From positions 1-41,633 of IMG/VR virus record IMGVR_UViG_3300043398_000067: a DNA stretch of 41,633 bases; one strand, 5' to 3'. Position 1 is the stretch's first letter; each line of letters opens with the position of its first letter. The translations under genes and the position numbers were made by a program. Below the pieces are notes generated by a model, which made no database searches, was not told where the DNA came from, and worked only from the letters and a program-made list of their open reading frames with translations. Origin of the DNA: a virus. Below are positions 103 to 10,713 of this stretch, one piece after another.

Positions 103-169
103 AGGTTAATACATTTAACAGCCGCCCATTTAATACAAAACAAACAGTAAAGGCTAAAGCCCACATAAC

Positions 170-241
170 ACTGCGTATAAGAAATAAATTTTTTCATTTC
201 ATTTTTTGGTTGTTAAAAATTTCCTTCTCATACGCTGGTGC
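170..241. repeat. attC-like palindromic spacer 1
   Basis: This stretch lies between AAC (167-169) and GTT (242-244), the ends of two cassettes. Its outer parts are complementary: TGCGTATAAGAAA at the left pairs with TTCTCATACGC near the right, with extra unpaired bases on the right side (TGGTGC) compared with ACT on the left. The middle is A/T-rich. The asymmetric imperfect stem flanked by AAC and GTT is the layout of an integron attC site, but no integrase is visible to confirm this. Confidence 0.55.
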
Positions 242-999
242 GTTATGTACAAGTTTAAAAAAGAAAAAAGCCCACGCTCTAAAAATGTTTTTAAAAAATT
301 TCATTTTAAAATAAAAAGGTTTGTTCGGGTTTCGTTCTTGTTAGTATTTCTCTTGCACAGTTGAATATGTATAAACCTAAATCCGGGTCAACCATATTTC
401 TCAATGTTTTGCCTTTGTCATCTAAATCCTCATCAGCAACATTAAAACCATAAACAGTTGATGTAGGTTTAATTTCAGTATGTTTCCTTTCATCTGTTAC
501 CTCGTAGTTTCCTATTCTGAAATTTGCCCAATAAATATGGCGGTGCAGTTTTGCAGTTGGAGCAATTAAAGGTTCGTAATAAGGTATCACATTTTCAACA
601 CAAAACTTTCCTTTATGCCAGTTCTGCAACACAATTATTTCTTGATATAGTTTCATATCAGGGTAAGTAATTTTGTGAGTATTGCTTACAATCATTGTTT
701 GCAGTTTTGAATGTGAGGGGCAAGGCGGTGAAGCCCAAATGAAATCAAACTCGTCAATGTGTTCAATTAAATATTGGTGTGCATCGCCTACAATTACAGT
801 ATCGTTTGGAAAGTTTTTACGATATACTTCTGCAATCTTCGGGTCATATTCAACTGCTGTTACTTCGCAGTCATTCCAAAGTTTTCTGTTGCCACCAATC
901 CCGGCATAAAGATTTAATACTCTCATAAGCATTTTAAAATAAAATTTTTTAAAAACATTTTTCCCTCCCTTTTTTTCTTTTTTAAACCAGACACATAAC
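242..999 (-). mobile_element. Gene cassette carrying the 208-aa C5 methyltransferase, with private inverted ends
   Basis: The cassette starts GTTATGT at 242 and ends ACATAAC at 999. Reading inward from both ends, about 70 bp align with few differences: GTTATGT, then GTTTAAAAAAGAAAAAA, a divergent G/C-rich block, then AAAAATGTTTTTAAAAAATT and ATTTTAAAAT. These ends are complementary to each other but unrelated to the ends of neighbouring cassettes apart from GTTA. The left copy begins at the methyltransferase stop codon and the right copy ends at its start codon, so the element is one gene plus ends. What mobilises it is not encoded in the window. Confidence 0.6.
306..932 (-). CDS. Short phage-type DNA cytosine-5 methyltransferase
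   Basis: This 208-aa protein has the signature parts of C5 methyltransferases: motif I LNLYAGIGG near residues 6-14, an acidic residue after strand 2 (VEYDP), motif IV SPPCPSHS near residue 69 with the catalytic cysteine, and motif VI VENV near residue 113. An RHIYW segment follows. It is much shorter than typical Dcm or HhaI enzymes (about 320 aa or more), with little room for a target-recognition domain, and matches the compact phage methyltransferases I know of this type. Likely role: methylating phage DNA, perhaps against host restriction. ATG 932 is used; ATG 926 two codons later is an equally good start. It is the single gene of its cassette. Confidence 0.85.
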   Translation of the reverse strand: MLMRVLNLYAGIGGNRKLWNDCEVTAVEYDPKIAEVYRKNFPNDTVIVGDAHQYLIEHIDEFDFIWASPPCPSHSKLQTMIVSNTHKITYPDMKLYQEIIVLQNWHKGKFCVENVIPYYEPLIAPTAKLHRHIYWANFRIGNYEVTDERKHTEIKPTSTVYGFNVADEDLDDKGKTLRNMVDPDLGLYIFNCAREILTRTKPEQTFLF

Positions 1000-1093
1000 A
1001 GCGTATTAAAGTAAATTTTAAAATGCCATTGGCTGTTGTGCTTAATTCAAACGGTTGTGCAAGGCATTTTAAAACTTCCTTAATACGCAATCC
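1000..1093. repeat. attC-like palindromic spacer 2
   Basis: The spacer lies between AAC (997-999) and GTT (1094-1096). GCGTATTAA at 1001-1009 pairs with TTAATACGC at 1080-1088, and ATTTTAAAATGCC pairs with GGCATTTTAAAA, giving a long imperfect hairpin with about 35 nt at its tip. On the coding strand the site reads AAC-GGATT-GCG at one end and CGC-T-GTTA at the other, so five bases are unpaired on one side and one on the other. The stop codon of the 151-aa gene lies inside the GTTA. Confidence 0.6.
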
Positions 1094-1622
1094 GTTAGTG
1101 GCTATTTGGCTTTGTATTATTTGGCGTAACAGCCTTAACAGCCGTATTGCGATGTAAAAATTCTACCACATTTTTTATACCTGCTACTCTTGCATCTATT
1201 GGGGTTTTGAAATACAATGTTGCTTGTCTGTCTAAATCCCAAATTGTAATACATCTTTCATTCTCGTAAACCATATAATCAAAAGTACCAGTAATCCATC
1301 TATTTATTGATAAATGTATTCTGTAATTATCGAAAATCCATTCTTCTATCTGCGACCAAAGTGGTGCTTTGTAATGTTCGCAAATCAAATTATGATTTAG
1401 GAGTAAATCGTCCACGCCAACAACAGCATCCACATCTAAAAACTTTTCGATTAGCACTCCATTAGGATTCCACCAATATAGAAATGGAATATTAACCCCT
1501 AACTCTTTTAGCATTTTAGATGTTTCAAAATCTACAATCTGGTCTTTCATATTTTTTTAGTTTATTAGTTTTAACAGCCCGCCAAATAATACAAATCCAA
1601 ACAGTTCGCTTCGCCCACTAAC
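1094..1622 (-). mobile_element. Gene cassette carrying the 151-aa unknown gene
   Basis: The ends are GTTAGTGG at 1094 and CCACTAAC at 1622. Reading inward, both continue to TTTGTATTATTTGGCG after a spacer of different length (the right copy has 11 extra bases). The left end lies inside the coding region, so the last residues of the 151-aa protein (Thr-Lys-Pro-Asn-Ser-His) and its stop codon are encoded by the end repeat. The end sequence is not shared with the neighbouring cassettes beyond GTTA. Confidence 0.6.
1095..1550 (-). CDS. Uncharacterised 151-aa cassette protein
   Basis: The product resembles a widespread uncharacterised Bacteroidota/phage family. Visible features are an N-terminal helix (SKMLKELGV), a WW pair near residue 26, the segment APLWSQIEEWIFDNYRI near residues 62-78, and GTFDYMVYEN, which looks like a beta-hairpin. 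It has no membrane segment or signal peptide, and I see no catalytic motif. The ATG at 1550 follows a leader containing GGCGGGCTGTTAAAA that recurs before other cassette genes. The stop codon is inside the GTTA of the cassette boundary. No function can be assigned. Confidence 0.75.
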   Translation of the reverse strand: MKDQIVDFETSKMLKELGVNIPFLYWWNPNGVLIEKFLDVDAVVGVDDLLLNHNLICEHYKAPLWSQIEEWIFDNYRIHLSINRWITGTFDYMVYENERCITIWDLDRQATLYFKTPIDARVAGIKNVVEFLHRNTAVKAVTPNNTKPNSH

Positions 1623-1725
1623 ATATTATTGTCGGCAATTTGGCATTTACTTTTTTATGTTTCATATTGATAAATGCCAAACCAAAATGAAACATTTTGC
1701 ACTTCGTGTGCCACAATAATCGTCC
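1623..1725. repeat. attC-like palindromic spacer 3
   Basis: The spacer runs from AAC (1620-1622) to GTT (1726-1728). TATTATTGTCGGCA at the left pairs with TGCCACAATAATCGTCC at the right, with the unpaired surplus on the right. Inside it a second stem pairs TGGCATTTA with TAAATGCCA, and ATGTTTCAT with ATGAAACAT further in. On the coding strand it begins AACGGACG, matching the AACGG start seen at most other spacers. Confidence 0.6.
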
Positions 1726-2017
1726 GTTAAGTGAAATAAAAATTAGCCATTGAGTGCCTGCTTAAAATGTGTGTATTCTTCTTCATTCAATCCTAATATG
1801 TAATCCACCCAATTATTATTAGACTCTTTACCATCACCAATTACTTGCGGTCTTTTGAATCTGAAAGCATTTTCCTTGTCTGTCTTATTTAGTCGCTCCA
1901 TATATTTTCCAATAAACTTTCCTTTCGGTAGTTTTCCGTTTCTTAAATCGTCAATGCTTTCATTCAGCATCTCTATAAATATGTTTTCCATTTGGCTAAT
2001 TTTTACTATCACTTAAC
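1726..2017 (-). mobile_element. Gene cassette carrying the 82-aa unknown gene
   Basis: At 292 bp this is the smallest gene-bearing cassette. The left end reads GTTAAGTGA then TAAAAATTAGCCA. The right end, read inward, is GTTAAGTGA, two or three differing bases, then TAAAAATTAGCCA. The two ends thus match over about 25 bp as an inverted repeat. The left copy holds the stop codon of the gene and the right copy stops just before its start. Confidence 0.6.
1743..1991 (-). CDS. Uncharacterised 82-aa cassette protein
   Basis: I use the ATG at 1991 (MENIFIEML). A longer reading from GTG 2012 would put the start inside the cassette end repeat. The protein is hydrophilic and probably helical, with charged stretches (ESIDDLRNGKLPKG, YMERLNKTDKENAF) and a C-terminal WVDYILGLNEEEYTHF segment. 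It has no cysteine cluster, membrane segment or catalytic motif that I recognise. It is the only gene in its cassette, between the 151-aa and 109-aa cassette genes. No function is proposed. Confidence 0.65.
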   Translation of the reverse strand: MENIFIEMLNESIDDLRNGKLPKGKFIGKYMERLNKTDKENAFRFKRPQVIGDGKESNNNWVDYILGLNEEEYTHFKQALNG

Positions 2018-2089
2018 AGCACCCTTGCGCAATAAGGTTGCCGTATTATTTTTTTTGGAAGCAACCCTACTGACGCAAGGCTGCAATCC
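2018..2089. repeat. attC-like palindromic spacer 4
   Basis: The spacer lies between AAC (2015-2017) and GTT (2090-2092). GCACCCTTGCGCAATAAGG pairs with the opposite side CCCTACTGACGCAAGGCTGC, continuing through GTTGC/GCAAC, so about 22 bp of imperfect stem surround an A/T-rich tip. On the coding strand it reads AAC-GGATT-GCA at one end and TGC-T-GTTA at the other, the same 5-versus-1 asymmetry as spacer 2. Confidence 0.65.
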
Positions 2090-2501
2090 GTTAATGGCAA
2101 GGCAGGCGTAACAGCCAAATACCATTCTCATTTAATCTAATTTAAAATTATGTCCAGAAGGCGTTCCCCTTACACAGCACCTTTCACAAGCATGATGTTC
2201 CTCTTCAACTGGTGCGCCACAGAAAGAACATTTAGGTTTCCACACAGAAACATCGTCTCCGTTTAGAAAACTTGCAATTATTGTTTTGTTTTCAAGTTCG
2301 TAATTTACTGGCAATTTCTTTAATTTAATATACCAATTTACAAAGTCAATTAACTTGTCTTCATTCCATACAAAGTGTTCGTCAAGTTTTTGCGCCCACC
2401 ATTCTGTATCTTCTGTAAACATTGATGGATAATGCGCTACGAATGTTTCTCCCTTTGTCATTGTTGTTTGTTTTTAACAGCCCGCCTGCCCAGCCATTAA
2501 C
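2090..2501 (-). mobile_element. Gene cassette carrying the 109-aa zinc-ribbon gene
   Basis: The left end is GTTAATGGCAAGGCAGGCG; the right end, read inward, is GTTAATGGCTGGGCAGGCG. They differ at two positions in 19. The next bases contain GGCTGTTA on the coding strand at both ends, in the 3' region as GGCTGTTACGCC and in the 5' leader as GGCGGGCTGTTAAAA. The cassette holds one gene and little else. Confidence 0.6.
2132..2461 (-). CDS. 109-aa protein with a C-terminal zinc ribbon
   Basis: The N-terminal two thirds are acidic and aromatic-rich (FTEDTEWWAQKLDEHFVWNEDKLIDFVNWYIKL), probably helical. The C-terminal part has four cysteines in the order CSFCGAP then CERCC, with two histidines between, consistent with one bound zinc. 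A role in nucleic-acid or protein binding is possible but not shown. The ATG at 2461 follows a leader with GGCGGGCTGTTAAAA. No homologous family comes to mind. It is the right-most gene of the first cassette array. Confidence 0.7.
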   Translation of the reverse strand: MTKGETFVAHYPSMFTEDTEWWAQKLDEHFVWNEDKLIDFVNWYIKLKKLPVNYELENKTIIASFLNGDDVSVWKPKCSFCGAPVEEEHHACERCCVRGTPSGHNFKLD

Positions 2502-2614
2502 ATCGGGCTTGACAATATGCAGGGCTGGTGCGTTTATGTATTATTTGTTTTCAATTTGTTTCTGTTATCAATATTCTGTGCCTCTTTCGCCTGCACATCG
2601 CAAGCCCGTGAACC
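2502..2614. repeat. attC-like palindromic spacer 5 (junction of array 1 with phage backbone)
   Basis: The spacer lies between AAC (2499-2501) and GTT (2615-2617). CGGGCTTGACAATATGCAGG near the left pairs with CCTGCACATCGCAAGCCCG near the right. On the coding strand it begins AAC-GGTTCA-CGGGCTTG and ends CAAGCCCG-AT-GTTA. The GTTA at 2615 contains the stop codon of the DUF1064 gene, a phage backbone gene. The start of this site closely matches spacer 7 at 10583-10651 (AACGGTTTCGGGCTTGG), which holds the same place in the second array. Confidence 0.65.
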
Positions 2615-2615
2615 G

Positions 2616-2966
2616 TTATTTAACAAGTACTAAATTATAATCAGGGTATAACGCCTTAGTAAGTTTCCATTTCAATTTCCACAAATCTGTTTCCATGCCT
2701 TTTACCTCCCAAAATTCCTTACGCCCATCCTCAAACTCAACTACAAAATCTATGAAATAGTTGGCTATATGTACCCCATTTACATCCAGGGATATTTTAA
2801 ACTGTCTATCCCAACTCTTTACCCTTTCTCTTGGGTTAATTGATTTCTTCAAAAGGTCAAGGCGGTGGGCTACTTCTGCCTCCATCTTTGAATGGTAATT
2901 GTACCCGTTATAAGTTTGCCGGATAGCCTTATACTTATTACCACTATGGAATGAGTTTTTATACAT
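2616..2966 (-). CDS. DUF1064 family phage nuclease-like protein
   Basis: This 116-aa protein has the features of the DUF1064 phage family: an N-terminal SKMEAEVAHRLDLL (usually SKxEAxxxxxL), a W.RQ segment, then YFIDFVVEFEDGRKEFWEVKG, whose D-F and E-V-K-G spacing fits a PD-(D/E)xK nuclease core, and a C-terminal LKWKLTKALYP helix. The family is common in phage replication regions and is thought to act like a Holliday-junction or DNA-repair nuclease; activity here is inferred. Its start overlaps the stop of the 50-aa zinc-finger gene, so it belongs to the phage operon. Its stop codon lies in the GTTA that begins the first cassette array. Confidence 0.8.
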   Translation of the reverse strand: MYKNSFHSGNKYKAIRQTYNGYNYHSKMEAEVAHRLDLLKKSINPRERVKSWDRQFKISLDVNGVHIANYFIDFVVEFEDGRKEFWEVKGMETDLWKLKWKLTKALYPDYNLVLVK

Positions 2967-8058: not shown

Positions 8059-8273
8059 AGGTATAAAGATTTATATTGTTGTTCATCTTGAATTAAAGGC
8101 ATCAAATTGTTTTTCTTTGTTTCAAACTCTAATAGCAGATCGTGGCCATCTTCATGCTTATTGGCATAGTCAATAACGTGAAGCGTTAGTGTGCTAATCT
8201 GCAAGTAATTCTTACATGACCTGATGCAATGTAAAAGTTTGATAAAACTGGAGTTTCGTTGTGTGTTTTTCAT
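8055..8273 (-). CDS. Uncharacterised 72-aa protein
   Basis: The product is helical with an N-terminal basic part (MKNTQRNSSFIKLLHCIRSC) and a C-terminal charged part (LLLEFETKKNNLMPLIQDE). It overlaps the zinc-finger gene start by ATGA and begins just after the HNH endonuclease gene ends. No domain is recognised. Confidence 0.55.
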   Translation of the reverse strand: MKNTQRNSSFIKLLHCIRSCKNYLQISTLTLHVIDYANKHEDGHDLLLEFETKKNNLMPLIQDEQQYKSLYL

Positions 8274-8275
8274 GT

Positions 8276-8770
8276 TTATATTTGGTTTAAATTTGCGAAT
8301 TGTCCATGTGCTTCAGCAGCAACTTTATTATATGCTTTTGCCGCATCTATTTCAGTTTTAAAAGTTCCTATATACCTATTTTTGCCGTTATATTGTATTC
8401 TTACTATATATTTGTCCGTTATTCTTTTATTATCTTTAGTGGCTTTTTGAAAATAAACCCCCAAATATTTAGAACCTGAATTTTTTTTCTTTGCTCTGTT
8501 TTTCATGTTCTCGGAATGGGTACAAACCCTCAAATTACATCTTTGATTATTGAGTCCATTCTTGTCAATATGATCCACCTGAAGAAGCCTATTATTAACG
8601 ACCATTAAATATCTATGTAAATATTGATGCTTCCCCATATAACTACGGGCAGCATAAAAACTATTATTTTTAGTACCCCTCACAGCAAACCATTTGTATT
8701 TATTTAAATCGATGTAATCCTCATCATCTACTATTGAAAATTGTCCTTTGGTAAGATTTATTTTTTTCAT
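8276..8770 (-). CDS. HNH endonuclease with AP2 DNA-binding domain
   Basis: The 164-aa protein has the order typical of free-standing HNH-AP2 homing-type nucleases: an N-terminal strand region (FSIVDDEDYIDLNKYKWF), an HNH core with LHRYLM and QVDHIDKNGLNNQRCNLRVC (His and Asn residues of the metal site), then an AP2 domain near residues 100-155 (YLGVYFQKATKDNKRITDKY then IGTFKTEIDAAKAYNKVAAE). Its ATG overlaps the stop of the small repressor gene. It would cut a specific DNA site and promote its own spread. It has inserted in, or evolved with, the early operon without breaking a visible gene. Confidence 0.88.
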   Translation of the reverse strand: MKKINLTKGQFSIVDDEDYIDLNKYKWFAVRGTKNNSFYAARSYMGKHQYLHRYLMVVNNRLLQVDHIDKNGLNNQRCNLRVCTHSENMKNRAKKKNSGSKYLGVYFQKATKDNKRITDKYIVRIQYNGKNRYIGTFKTEIDAAKAYNKVAAEAHGQFANLNQI

Positions 8771-9431: not shown

Positions 9432-9449
9432 TGCGACAATGCAGATGTT
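9432..9449. repeat. 18-bp array-boundary repeat, copy 1
   Basis: TGCGACAATGCAGATGTT is found here and again exactly at 41598-41615. Its last three bases are the GTT that opens the first (gene-less) unit of array 2, so it marks the exact junction of backbone and array. It could be an attachment site like attI, or a shared regulatory element upstream of the two genes it precedes. Confidence 0.5.
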
Positions 9450-9514
9450 CCCCTCAAGGCACAGGCGGGGATAAAAGAACACCCCGCATACGCCCCTGTG
9501 TCCGTGAGGGGAAC
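9447..9514. repeat. 68-bp gene-less mini-cassette (hairpin)
   Basis: The unit begins GTTCCCCTCAAGGCACAGG and ends, read inward, GTTCCCCTCACGGACACAGG; a further CGGGG/CCCCG pair closes the inner stem around about 11 bases. It thus has the GTT...AAC boundaries and private inverted ends of the gene cassettes but no room for a gene. It may be a decayed cassette or a terminal element of the array. Confidence 0.5.
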
Positions 9515-9614
9515 TAAGTACGGGTTACACCCCTGTGTCTCCACCCAGCGGAGAACATGGGGTTTGAGCCGACCGCCAAAACAACGAGGGGCGGCCCGGC
9601 CAAACCCGTACTTA
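9515..9614. repeat. Palindromic spacer 6 (between mini-cassette and HisRS-like cassette)
   Basis: The ends TAAGTACGGGTT and AACCCGTACTTA pair perfectly, so together with AAC and GTT the outer stem is 15 bp. It encloses G/C-rich secondary hairpins. Unlike the other spacers the base of this stem is fully symmetric. No convincing gene is present. Confidence 0.5.
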
Positions 9615-9634
9615 GTTATGCTCAATATTTTTTA

Positions 9635-10285
9635 TCATTTTTTTTCTCCCTCCCCAAAAGAGAACACAGAGAGTAATCGGTCAACTCCGATAGCAAAACC
9701 AATTCCGCCATCGTATTCACCACCACCGCAAATTTGTTTTGAACTGCCTAATTTATCGTAAGCAATTTCAAATCCTTTGCCTTCTTTATAGTAGTCCAAT
9801 CCCCTTGTAACATTCCTGCTCACTTCAAATCCGTCTATACCAAAGCATTTTACTAAATCACTTGCAATGGTTATCAGTTCTTCCAAGTAATCTTTTTTCG
9901 GATTAATAATTTCAACTCCAAATTGTGTAAACTGTCGGTATCTTCCTGCTTGGGGGCTTTCTCCTCTGAAACATTCCTGCACATAAAACAACTTCACATC
10001 ATTTTGAAATTTGAATTGTGTAATTGCTAATTTCTGAACCACCGCAGTATATTCAGGAGCAAGGCAAACATTTCTGTTGCCTCTATCGGTAAAATTGAAC
10101 ATCAGGTTATTATTTTCCTCTCCAACTTTATTTGCAAAGGTTTCTTGCATCTGAATAATTGGAATTGAAATTTCCTGATACCCTTTTTTAATTAGGTAGT
10201 TTGCCATTTCGGTTACAATGGTTCGTTTTTCATTGCCTACAAGTATTCTTGTGCCTTTATAGGTTGTTTCTTTAATCTCTAACAT
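9635..10285 (-). CDS. Minimal histidyl-tRNA synthetase-like catalytic core
   Basis: The 216-aa protein follows the class II HisRS core from its first residues: KGTRIL, a motif 1-like helix (TEMANYLIKKGYQEISIP), then YVQECFRGESPQAGRYRQFT (motif 2, with both key arginines). The histidine-binding signatures TRGLDYY and CGGGEYDGG are intact, as is motif 3 (AIGVDRLL with its arginine). The roughly 100-residue insertion normally between motif 2 and RGLDYY is missing, and so is the C-terminal anticodon-binding domain. It could therefore form histidyl-adenylate but lacks the usual tRNA-binding parts. HisZ-like regulation, amino-acid transfer to a non-tRNA target, or a defence/toxin role are possible. 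It is cassette cargo, not a phage backbone gene. Confidence 0.85.
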   Translation of the reverse strand: MLEIKETTYKGTRILVGNEKRTIVTEMANYLIKKGYQEISIPIIQMQETFANKVGEENNNLMFNFTDRGNRNVCLAPEYTAVVQKLAITQFKFQNDVKLFYVQECFRGESPQAGRYRQFTQFGVEIINPKKDYLEELITIASDLVKCFGIDGFEVSRNVTRGLDYYKEGKGFEIAYDKLGSSKQICGGGEYDGGIGFAIGVDRLLSVFSFGEGEKK

Positions 10286-10511
10286 ATTGCTGTATTTCAG
10301 TTTGTAATTGTCGGTTCATTTCAATATCAAGATCATAATAACCTTGTAGTCCTTCACGGCTTCCCACCATTCTCATTTCGTCTTTGTAAAAGAGTTCGTG
10401 TAGGTATCCAGTAAAATCTTCGTCTTTGCCTTTTATTCTGGCATCAACATATTTGCGAATTGGTTTCCTGAAAAACCATTTGATAAGTAACTTTTGAATT
10501 TTCTTTTTCAT
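10272..10511 (-). CDS. 79-aa partner of the HisRS-like protein
   Basis: The N-terminus is very basic (MKKKIQKLLIKWFFRKPIRKYV), possibly an amphipathic or membrane-touching helix, and the rest is acidic and helical (GYYDLDIEMNRQLQTEIQQYV). It overlaps the HisRS-like start by 14 bases and shares its cassette, so the two probably act together. It could be the substrate or a carrier for the activated histidine, but nothing in the sequence shows this. No family is recognised. Confidence 0.6.
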   Translation of the reverse strand: MKKKIQKLLIKWFFRKPIRKYVDARIKGKDEDFTGYLHELFYKDEMRMVGSREGLQGYYDLDIEMNRQLQTEIQQYVRD

Positions 10512-10582
10512 ATTGTAATTAATTTAGAGAACACAGAGTAAAAGCCCACTCACAAAAAATGATAAAAAATACTAAGCATAAC

Positions 10583-10651
10583 ACGGGTTTGGCAAAATGG
10601 CTTTCCGACACACAAGCCAACGCCAAAAGCCACTTCGCCAAGCCCGAAACC
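10583..10651. repeat. attC-like palindromic spacer 7
   Basis: This is the cleanest of the sites. ACGGGTTTGGCAAAATGGCT at the left pairs with AGCCACTTCGCCAAGCCCG at the right in a stem of about 21 bp with few mismatches, around a 25-base tip. On the coding strand it reads AAC-GGTTT-CGGGCTTGG at one end and CCAAACCCG-T-GTTATG at the other, with five unpaired bases against one. It resembles spacer 5 over its first 20 bases. Confidence 0.65.
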
Positions 10652-10713
10652 GTTACGTAGTTGTGTCATGTCGTATGGTGTTAGGCGTTGGTGTATAGTT
10701 GTACTAGATCAGG

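Follow-up and report, generated by a model that had tools for sequence, protein, structure and literature searches.

A probable integron-type cassette array with long, covarying ends in a Bacteroidota-type phage

The left end of a viral DNA of 41,633 bp, the whole of IMG/VR virus record IMGVR_UViG_3300043398_000067 (hereafter the window), holds a row of small gene cassettes whose two ends match each other as inverted repeats, each cassette with a pair of its own. What are such ends for, and what kind of system would need them? We think it probable that this is the cassette array of an integron-type capture system in Bacteroidota-type phages, a phage-borne variant of the integron. On the + strand, each unit between bases 1 and 2617 starts with GTT(A), carries one reading frame on the - strand and stops at (T)AAC, and a hairpin resembling the attC site of integrons spans the distance from that AAC to the next GTT. 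At least five cassettes, with attC-like hairpins between them, adjoin the DnaB helicase gene, and the contig end falls inside the array, cutting cassette 0.

Pairing and covariation of the cassette ends

An earlier note on this DNA had described four pairs of matching ends, of about 70, 40, 25 and 19 bp, and on re-measurement both borders and lengths proved essentially right. In cassette 1 (242-999), arms of 60 and 58 nt form about 48 Watson-Crick pairs with internal gaps; within and around them, 253-269 pairs with 971-987 at 17 of 17 positions and 281-312 with 931-962 at 97%. Cassette 2 (1094-1622) sets a left arm of 33 nt against a right arm of 43 nt, giving 31 pairs and a 10-nt bulge in the right arm. 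The shorter stems are nearly complete, with 23 of 24 positions paired in cassette 3 (1726-2017; arms of 24 and 25 nt) and 17 of 19 in cassette 4 (2090-2501; both arms 19 nt). For each of the four, none of 1000 dinucleotide-shuffled right arms reached the observed pairing score. Among 895 other GTTA..TAAC pairs lying 200-1000 bp apart in the window, just one scored at least as high as the weakest of the four (14.6), and that one, at 9615-10582 with a score of 24.6, is itself another cassette.

Related arrays show that the two ends of a cassette change together. Searching with a DNA pattern of the box that adjoins the right stem on its inner side (TTTAACAGCCCGCC) gave 74 matches, three of them real arrays (in contigs L029, L065 and L068), and a 68-kb phage, L355, carries an array of well over a dozen cassettes beside a recombinase, followed by DnaB as in the window. 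For 33 cassettes compiled from phage contigs of this architecture, own ends scored 15.3 on average and swapped ends 4.8; none of 20,000 permutations was as high (maximum permuted mean 7.6), and the own partner was the best of all for 27 of the 33. Over the first nine border positions 91% of cells are paired, 66 cells have changed on both sides, and the border covariation score of 0.547 drops to 0.116 on shuffling and to 0.10 or less on sliding. Covariation also extends to the part of the stem past base 11 (mean 11.2, maximum permuted 4.9). The compensatory changes that the earlier note had proposed looking for among homologous cassettes are present, with 8 compensatory and 2 other changes between cassette 2 and its homologue in L029, whose proteins are 27% identical. 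Other routes to relatives yielded less: searches for close relatives with the DnaB, P0002 and DUF1064 proteins gave few useful loci, left-end DNA patterns matched mostly by chance among the matches screened, and a right-end pattern in genome contigs gave 23 chance matches and no array.

The stems have a core of at least 14 bp and reach up to about 47 nt, 18 of 28 running much further than the core. All 28 stems scored have an A at left-arm base 11 facing a C, a mismatch on the top strand and a G·T wobble on the bottom strand, and a right-arm bulge of 0, 1, 10 or 14 nt usually lies just before this mark. The statement that different cassettes share only GTTA is therefore not exact: all stems carry the mark, and cassettes 0, 2 and 4 have a common inner TAACAGCC box.

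The hairpins between cassettes (n = 41) mostly have a central spacer of 1-2 nt on one side and 5-6 nt on the other, an L stem and a variable end, and about half have a single extra base at positions 8-11. Complementary R'' and R' boxes and a C-preceded GTT triplet, the features by which attC sites are recognized, are both found. The C precedes GTT in 27 of 33 cassettes, as it does in most attC sites (PMC2727003). G·T wobbles in the hairpin stems fall on the bottom strand 52 times and on the top strand 8 times, much like the classic V. anguillarum sites (16 versus 5). Rfam gave no match.

Pairing between the ends of one cassette is itself known from integrons. In most classic cassettes the self-paired stretch is 9-11 nt long (PMC2727003). 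In a V. anguillarum phage with a superintegron fragment, 12 of 13 cassettes self-pair in perfect runs of 8-11 nt, and matches across cassettes amount to about GTTA plus chance. The contrast drawn earlier, with classic attC sites pairing only short R boxes, thus stands for length (at least 14 versus 8-11) and falls for kind. Recognition by structure rather than sequence, also put forward earlier, is already the textbook model of attC. As private, covarying ends are known in integrons, the difference here is one of degree together with the fixed mark; what is new is the stem length (at least 14 and up to about 47 nt), the mark and the bulge.

The idea that the ends of a circular cassette would extend the attC stem was borne out by folding. 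Head-to-tail junctions of cassettes 1-4 gave bottom-strand folds of -60, -53, -41 and -38 kcal/mol, against -30, -27, -31 and -22 kcal/mol for the corresponding array folds. The circle junction is about 10-30 kcal/mol more stable than the array junction, and the bottom strand folds best. The array site is a hybrid, its left arm facing the previous cassette with only about 4 matching bases.

The ends are modular. Cassette 4 and a cassette of L065 are alike at the left end (29 nt, 97%) and at the right end with the hairpin start (67 nt, 96%) around unrelated genes, and L068 has 143 nt of the cassette 4 right end and hairpin (92%) around a third gene. The earlier note had named the same end on unrelated cassettes as a finding that would speak against it, and this is what we see; its private ends do covary within each cassette and are not strictly private. 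Because the same ends surround unrelated genes, they belong to the attC frame rather than to the gene, with the cargo exchangeable within the frame. The likeness breaks off at inner AACAGCC boxes, which mark the points at which one unrelated gene has replaced another inside a common frame. In 12 of 35 cassettes (from the window, L029, L065, L068 and L355) these boxes stand as direct repeats on either side of the gene, within the outer stem; they are absent from the remaining 39 kb of the window.

Recombinase, attI-like site and cargo in related phages

Relatives of the array adjoin a tyrosine recombinase in seven loci (L029, L345, L346, L348, L349, L350 and L353); in L029, which also encodes phage terminase and primase proteins, the gene is directly beside the array. 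Ten further virus loci encode relatives of the L029 recombinase, 58-83% identical to it in alignment, and in nine relatives R131, K156, H220, R223, H246 and Y255 are invariant, so that the tyrosine-recombinase catalytic set is complete. In seven loci an AAC stands upstream of the recombinase start codon, at a distance of about 50 bp that hardly varies, with similar spacing in L353; it is preceded by cassette ends and, in the closest relatives, followed by (A)TATGTATTACAT. We call this position attI-like. A second copy of the attI-like motif (ATACATATACAT directly followed by GTTAGCC) was noticed around 15656 of L355, about 15 kb past the first and before another possible cassette.

The best relatives of solved structure are IntI4 of V. 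cholerae and XerA. Like XerA, XerC and XerD, the phage enzyme is a simple tyrosine recombinase without the IntI insertion, with a score close to that of XerA. It differs from them in standing beside cassette arrays with a conserved attI-like site, in its IntI-like C-terminus (SPISRI against SPLSRL) and in forming a clade of its own, strongly supported in a small tree. An AlphaFold model (mean pLDDT 55) was too poor for use. Searches of 395 Bacteroidota genomes (E 1e-65) and of PLSDB plasmids (1e-50) gave no match to the recombinase. Polaribacter phage Leef_1, whose integrase is distant, has no such array, and two Marivirga contigs with the nearest chromosomal recombinases have no convincing one: the first contig yielded a single weak pair that looks like chance, the second no pair at all.

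The polarity of the base-11 mark, of the hairpin wobbles and of the C before GTT gives the sites one orientation, and the place of the attI-like site gives the same. In 34 of 36 cassettes the gene opposes it: the longest open reading frame (ORF) is antisense and points towards the attI-like site. Integron genes read away from attI, from R' to R'', and these do not. Treponema integrons (PMC3607928) are similar in that integrase and cassette genes are transcribed in one direction, yet there intI points to attI and the genes away from it, whereas here the genes point to attI and the recombinase away.

DNA methyltransferases are enriched in the cargo and come from several unrelated families (C5, N6/N4, D12, EcoRI-type and MT-A70, in the arrays of L355-L358 and in window cassettes 0 and 1); this suggests that anti-restriction genes are being stored. 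The start of some cassette genes lies within their own attC-like hairpin (L029 reverse complement, about 8631; L068 reverse complement, about 2515), so that the recombination site doubles as leader and coding sequence.

Layout of the window

The features of the window are collected in Table 1. It encodes DnaB, portal and metallophosphoesterase proteins of a phage, and the portal has relatives, among sequenced phages, only in those of Nonlabens (Flavobacteriia); a Bacteroidota host is likely on this sequence kinship. Relatives of the DUF1064 gene in other viruses lack the array at that position. Right ends of arrays meet the stop codons of phage genes both here (DUF1064, window 2615) and in L065 (YqaJ-like nuclease, reverse complement about 1803-1860, hairpin truncated).

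A second, smaller array lies further into the window. On its left, next to a small gene that does not encode a recombinase, is an attI-like stretch that has diverged (CGTATTAC). Its ORF-less unit of about 170 bp (also L029 reverse complement 8131-8302 and 9841 onward) folds at about -90 to -113 kcal/mol, is kept in two phages with compensatory stem changes and has two copies in one array; its product may be a structured RNA.

Table 1. Cassettes, attC-like hairpins and adjoining features of the window
Feature	Position	Strand	Description
Cassette 0, truncated by contig end	1-241	-	5' part of a C5-methyltransferase-like reading frame, start codon about 101-99 (from the sequence; DNA match to phage methyltransferases)
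Cassette 0 inner box TAACAGCC	116-123		right arm finishes ..CCCACATAAC at about 169
attC-like hairpin 0 (AAC..GTT)	167-244		
Cassette 1	242-999	-	P0001, C5-methyltransferase-like, 208 aa; private arms 242-301 / 942-999
attC-like hairpin 1	997-1096		
Cassette 2	1094-1622	-	P0002, 151 aa, homologue in an L029 cassette; private arms 1094-1126 / 1580-1622
Cassette 2 inner boxes TAACAGCC	1127-1134 and 1572-1579		
attC-like hairpin 2	1620-1728		
Cassette 3	1726-2017	-	P0003, 89 aa; private arms 1726-1749 / 1993-2017
attC-like hairpin 3	2015-2092		similar hairpin in L065
Cassette 4	2090-2501	-	P0004, 109 aa; private arms 2090-2108 / 2483-2501
Cassette 4 inner boxes TAACAGCC	2109-2116 and 2475-2482		end frame also around unrelated genes in L065 and L068
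attC-like hairpin 4	2499-2617		GTT overlaps stop codon of next gene
DUF1064 gene	2616-2966	-	stop codon (TAAC = GTTA) forms right border of array
Second array, element 1	9447-9616		ORF-less, highly structured cassette: GTTCCCCTCA..TGAGGGGAAC + hairpin 9512-9617; homologue twice in L029
Second array, cassette	9615-10582	-	histidyl-tRNA-synthetase-like gene (9635-10285) + 79-aa ORF; private stem about 29 nt, same fixed mark
Second array, closing attC-like hairpin	10580-10654		ACGGGTTTGGC..GCCAAGCCCG

Mechanism, alternatives and meaning

The likeness to bacterial integrons, such as the superintegrons of V. cholerae and V. anguillarum and those of class 1, is broad. It covers the array of one-gene cassettes with G↓TT borders and private R-box pairing, the folded site with R boxes, unpaired central spacer, L stem and variable end, the attI-like site just upstream of a tyrosine recombinase, and the bottom-strand polarity of the wobbles. 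The differences lie in the outer pairing (14-47 nt against 8-11), the G·T mark at base 11, genes inverted to both attC and attI, a recombinase that has no IntI insertion, and AACAGCC boxes in some cassettes. The inverted genes, this recombinase and the attI-like site, none of which figured in the earlier note, are what set the system apart as unusual. The system is not a canonical integron, in its lack of the IntI insertion and in its gene orientation.

Several observations weigh against an integron-type reading. No integrase gene is found in the window, though the contig ends inside the array. With at least two attC-like sites and no integrase, the array resembles the clusters of attC sites lacking integron-integrases (CALINs), but it is cut at the contig end, and relatives carry the recombinase on that side. 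For 5 of the 33 cassettes the own-end score is within reach of random swaps. In classic attC the strand is marked chiefly by extra-helical bases; here these are divided 28 and 30 between the arms with no clear bias, against 21 and 5 in V. anguillarum. The inverted genes are wrongly oriented to be read from a shared Pc promoter, and no promoter of their own was found, Bacteroidota-type promoters not being enriched upstream (1 site versus 0.2 expected). The recombinase family scores 170 bits against the cut-off of 265 for the TIGR02249 integron-integrase model, and about 45 residues are missing at the IntI-specific insertion, which has been described as essential for integron function (PMC8138268) and associated with single-strand recombination (PMC9024848).

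We propose a model in which the unit consists of GTT, left arm, antisense gene, right arm, AAC and hairpin. When the cassette is circular or single-stranded, its two arms and the hairpin between them would fold together as one long attC. The bottom strand of this fold would undergo strand exchange at G↓TT, catalysed by the IntI-related tyrosine recombinase encoded beside the arrays in relatives. The cassette would be inserted at the attI-like site about 50 bp upstream of the recombinase start codon, and insertion would split the outer stem, leaving the hybrid site seen in the array. Since so few bases of that site match, the preferred substrate may be the excised cassette, or ends zipped across one single-stranded cassette, and recombination could be biased towards capture. 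The recombinase may tell which strand it holds from the asymmetry of the spacer and from the invariant G·T mark at 11 nt from the border. It is tempting to go further, and tentatively, at less than even chances, we suggest that a Xer/IntI-like recombinase without the IntI insertion reads the long outer stem with its G·T mark. This would be a second solution to single-strand cassette recombination, with genes that lie inverted to attI, and with cargo also exchanged at a second level, through the AACAGCC boxes.

The private stem could instead zip the two ends of one cassette in single-stranded DNA, at a replication fork or in a single-stranded intermediate, aligning both G↓TT points; it would then be a device for excision and not for integration. 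The pairing does join the ends of one cassette, is present in the array as in the circle, and begins exactly at the crossover triplets. Sequence cannot separate this from the circle model, and ORF-bearing loops of 200-900 nt would have to be spanned, so we regard it as doubtful, if the best of the alternatives.

Rather improbable, in our judgement, is an ordinary integron cassette cluster on a phage, with R-box self-pairing that is slightly longer, no new mechanism and any host IntI sufficing. Phages are known to carry integrons and IntI-less clusters, a Bacteroidota (Polaribacter) phage with methyltransferase cassettes among them, and of 6 phage attC sites tested, 5 were recombined by IntI1 (Qi et al. 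2023, PMC9892861). Those clusters resemble the present arrays in their place in phage genomes and, in several, in carrying DNA methyltransferases; they differ in having been found by standard attC and IntI models, with no phage-specific recombinase family described there. Self-pairing over 9-11 nt in known cassettes (PMC2727003), with which the V. anguillarum measurement agrees, also speaks for an ordinary cluster. It is harder to reconcile with a stem core of at least 14 bp bearing a fixed wobble, with the 18 of 28 stems that extend well beyond that core, with the inverted genes, and with an adjacent recombinase that is not IntI by cut-off or by insertion. A hairpin detector found no private long stems in phage stretches of Polaribacter P12002L, Shewanella and Vibrio, which is weak evidence as it also missed most classic attC sites there.

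A role in RNA, as terminators or in protecting mRNA ends, would leave the inverted ends unrelated to recombination. The bottom strand with its wobble pairs is the strand of the gene transcript, and attC sites can be weak terminators (PMC9892861). The stems are, however, anchored exactly at the GTT/AAC border with an identical mark at a constant distance regardless of the gene, one occurs in a unit without a long ORF (L355 8749-8866), and array junctions break the pairing precisely at G↓TT; on these grounds we rejected a terminator-only reading and think any such role very unlikely. That each cassette is an independent insertion sequence (IS) or miniature inverted-repeat transposable element (MITE), as terminal inverted repeats around every gene might suggest, can be dismissed, since there is no transposase, neighbours' ends differ and covary, as the earlier note had rightly stressed, hairpins lie between the units, and in relatives the array stands beside a tyrosine recombinase and an attI-like site.

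Returning to the integron-type system that we favor, standard integron finders may overlook such arrays because integrase and gene orientation are both off-model. Integrons are the main natural platform for gene capture and have spread antibiotic resistance, and the extra IntI domain has been taken as what let a tyrosine recombinase use folded single-stranded DNA. With the same array architecture found without that domain, and with an extended, covarying stem, the origin of single-strand cassette recombination becomes directly testable. For the phages, such a system would be a way to stock methyltransferases and other anti-host genes.

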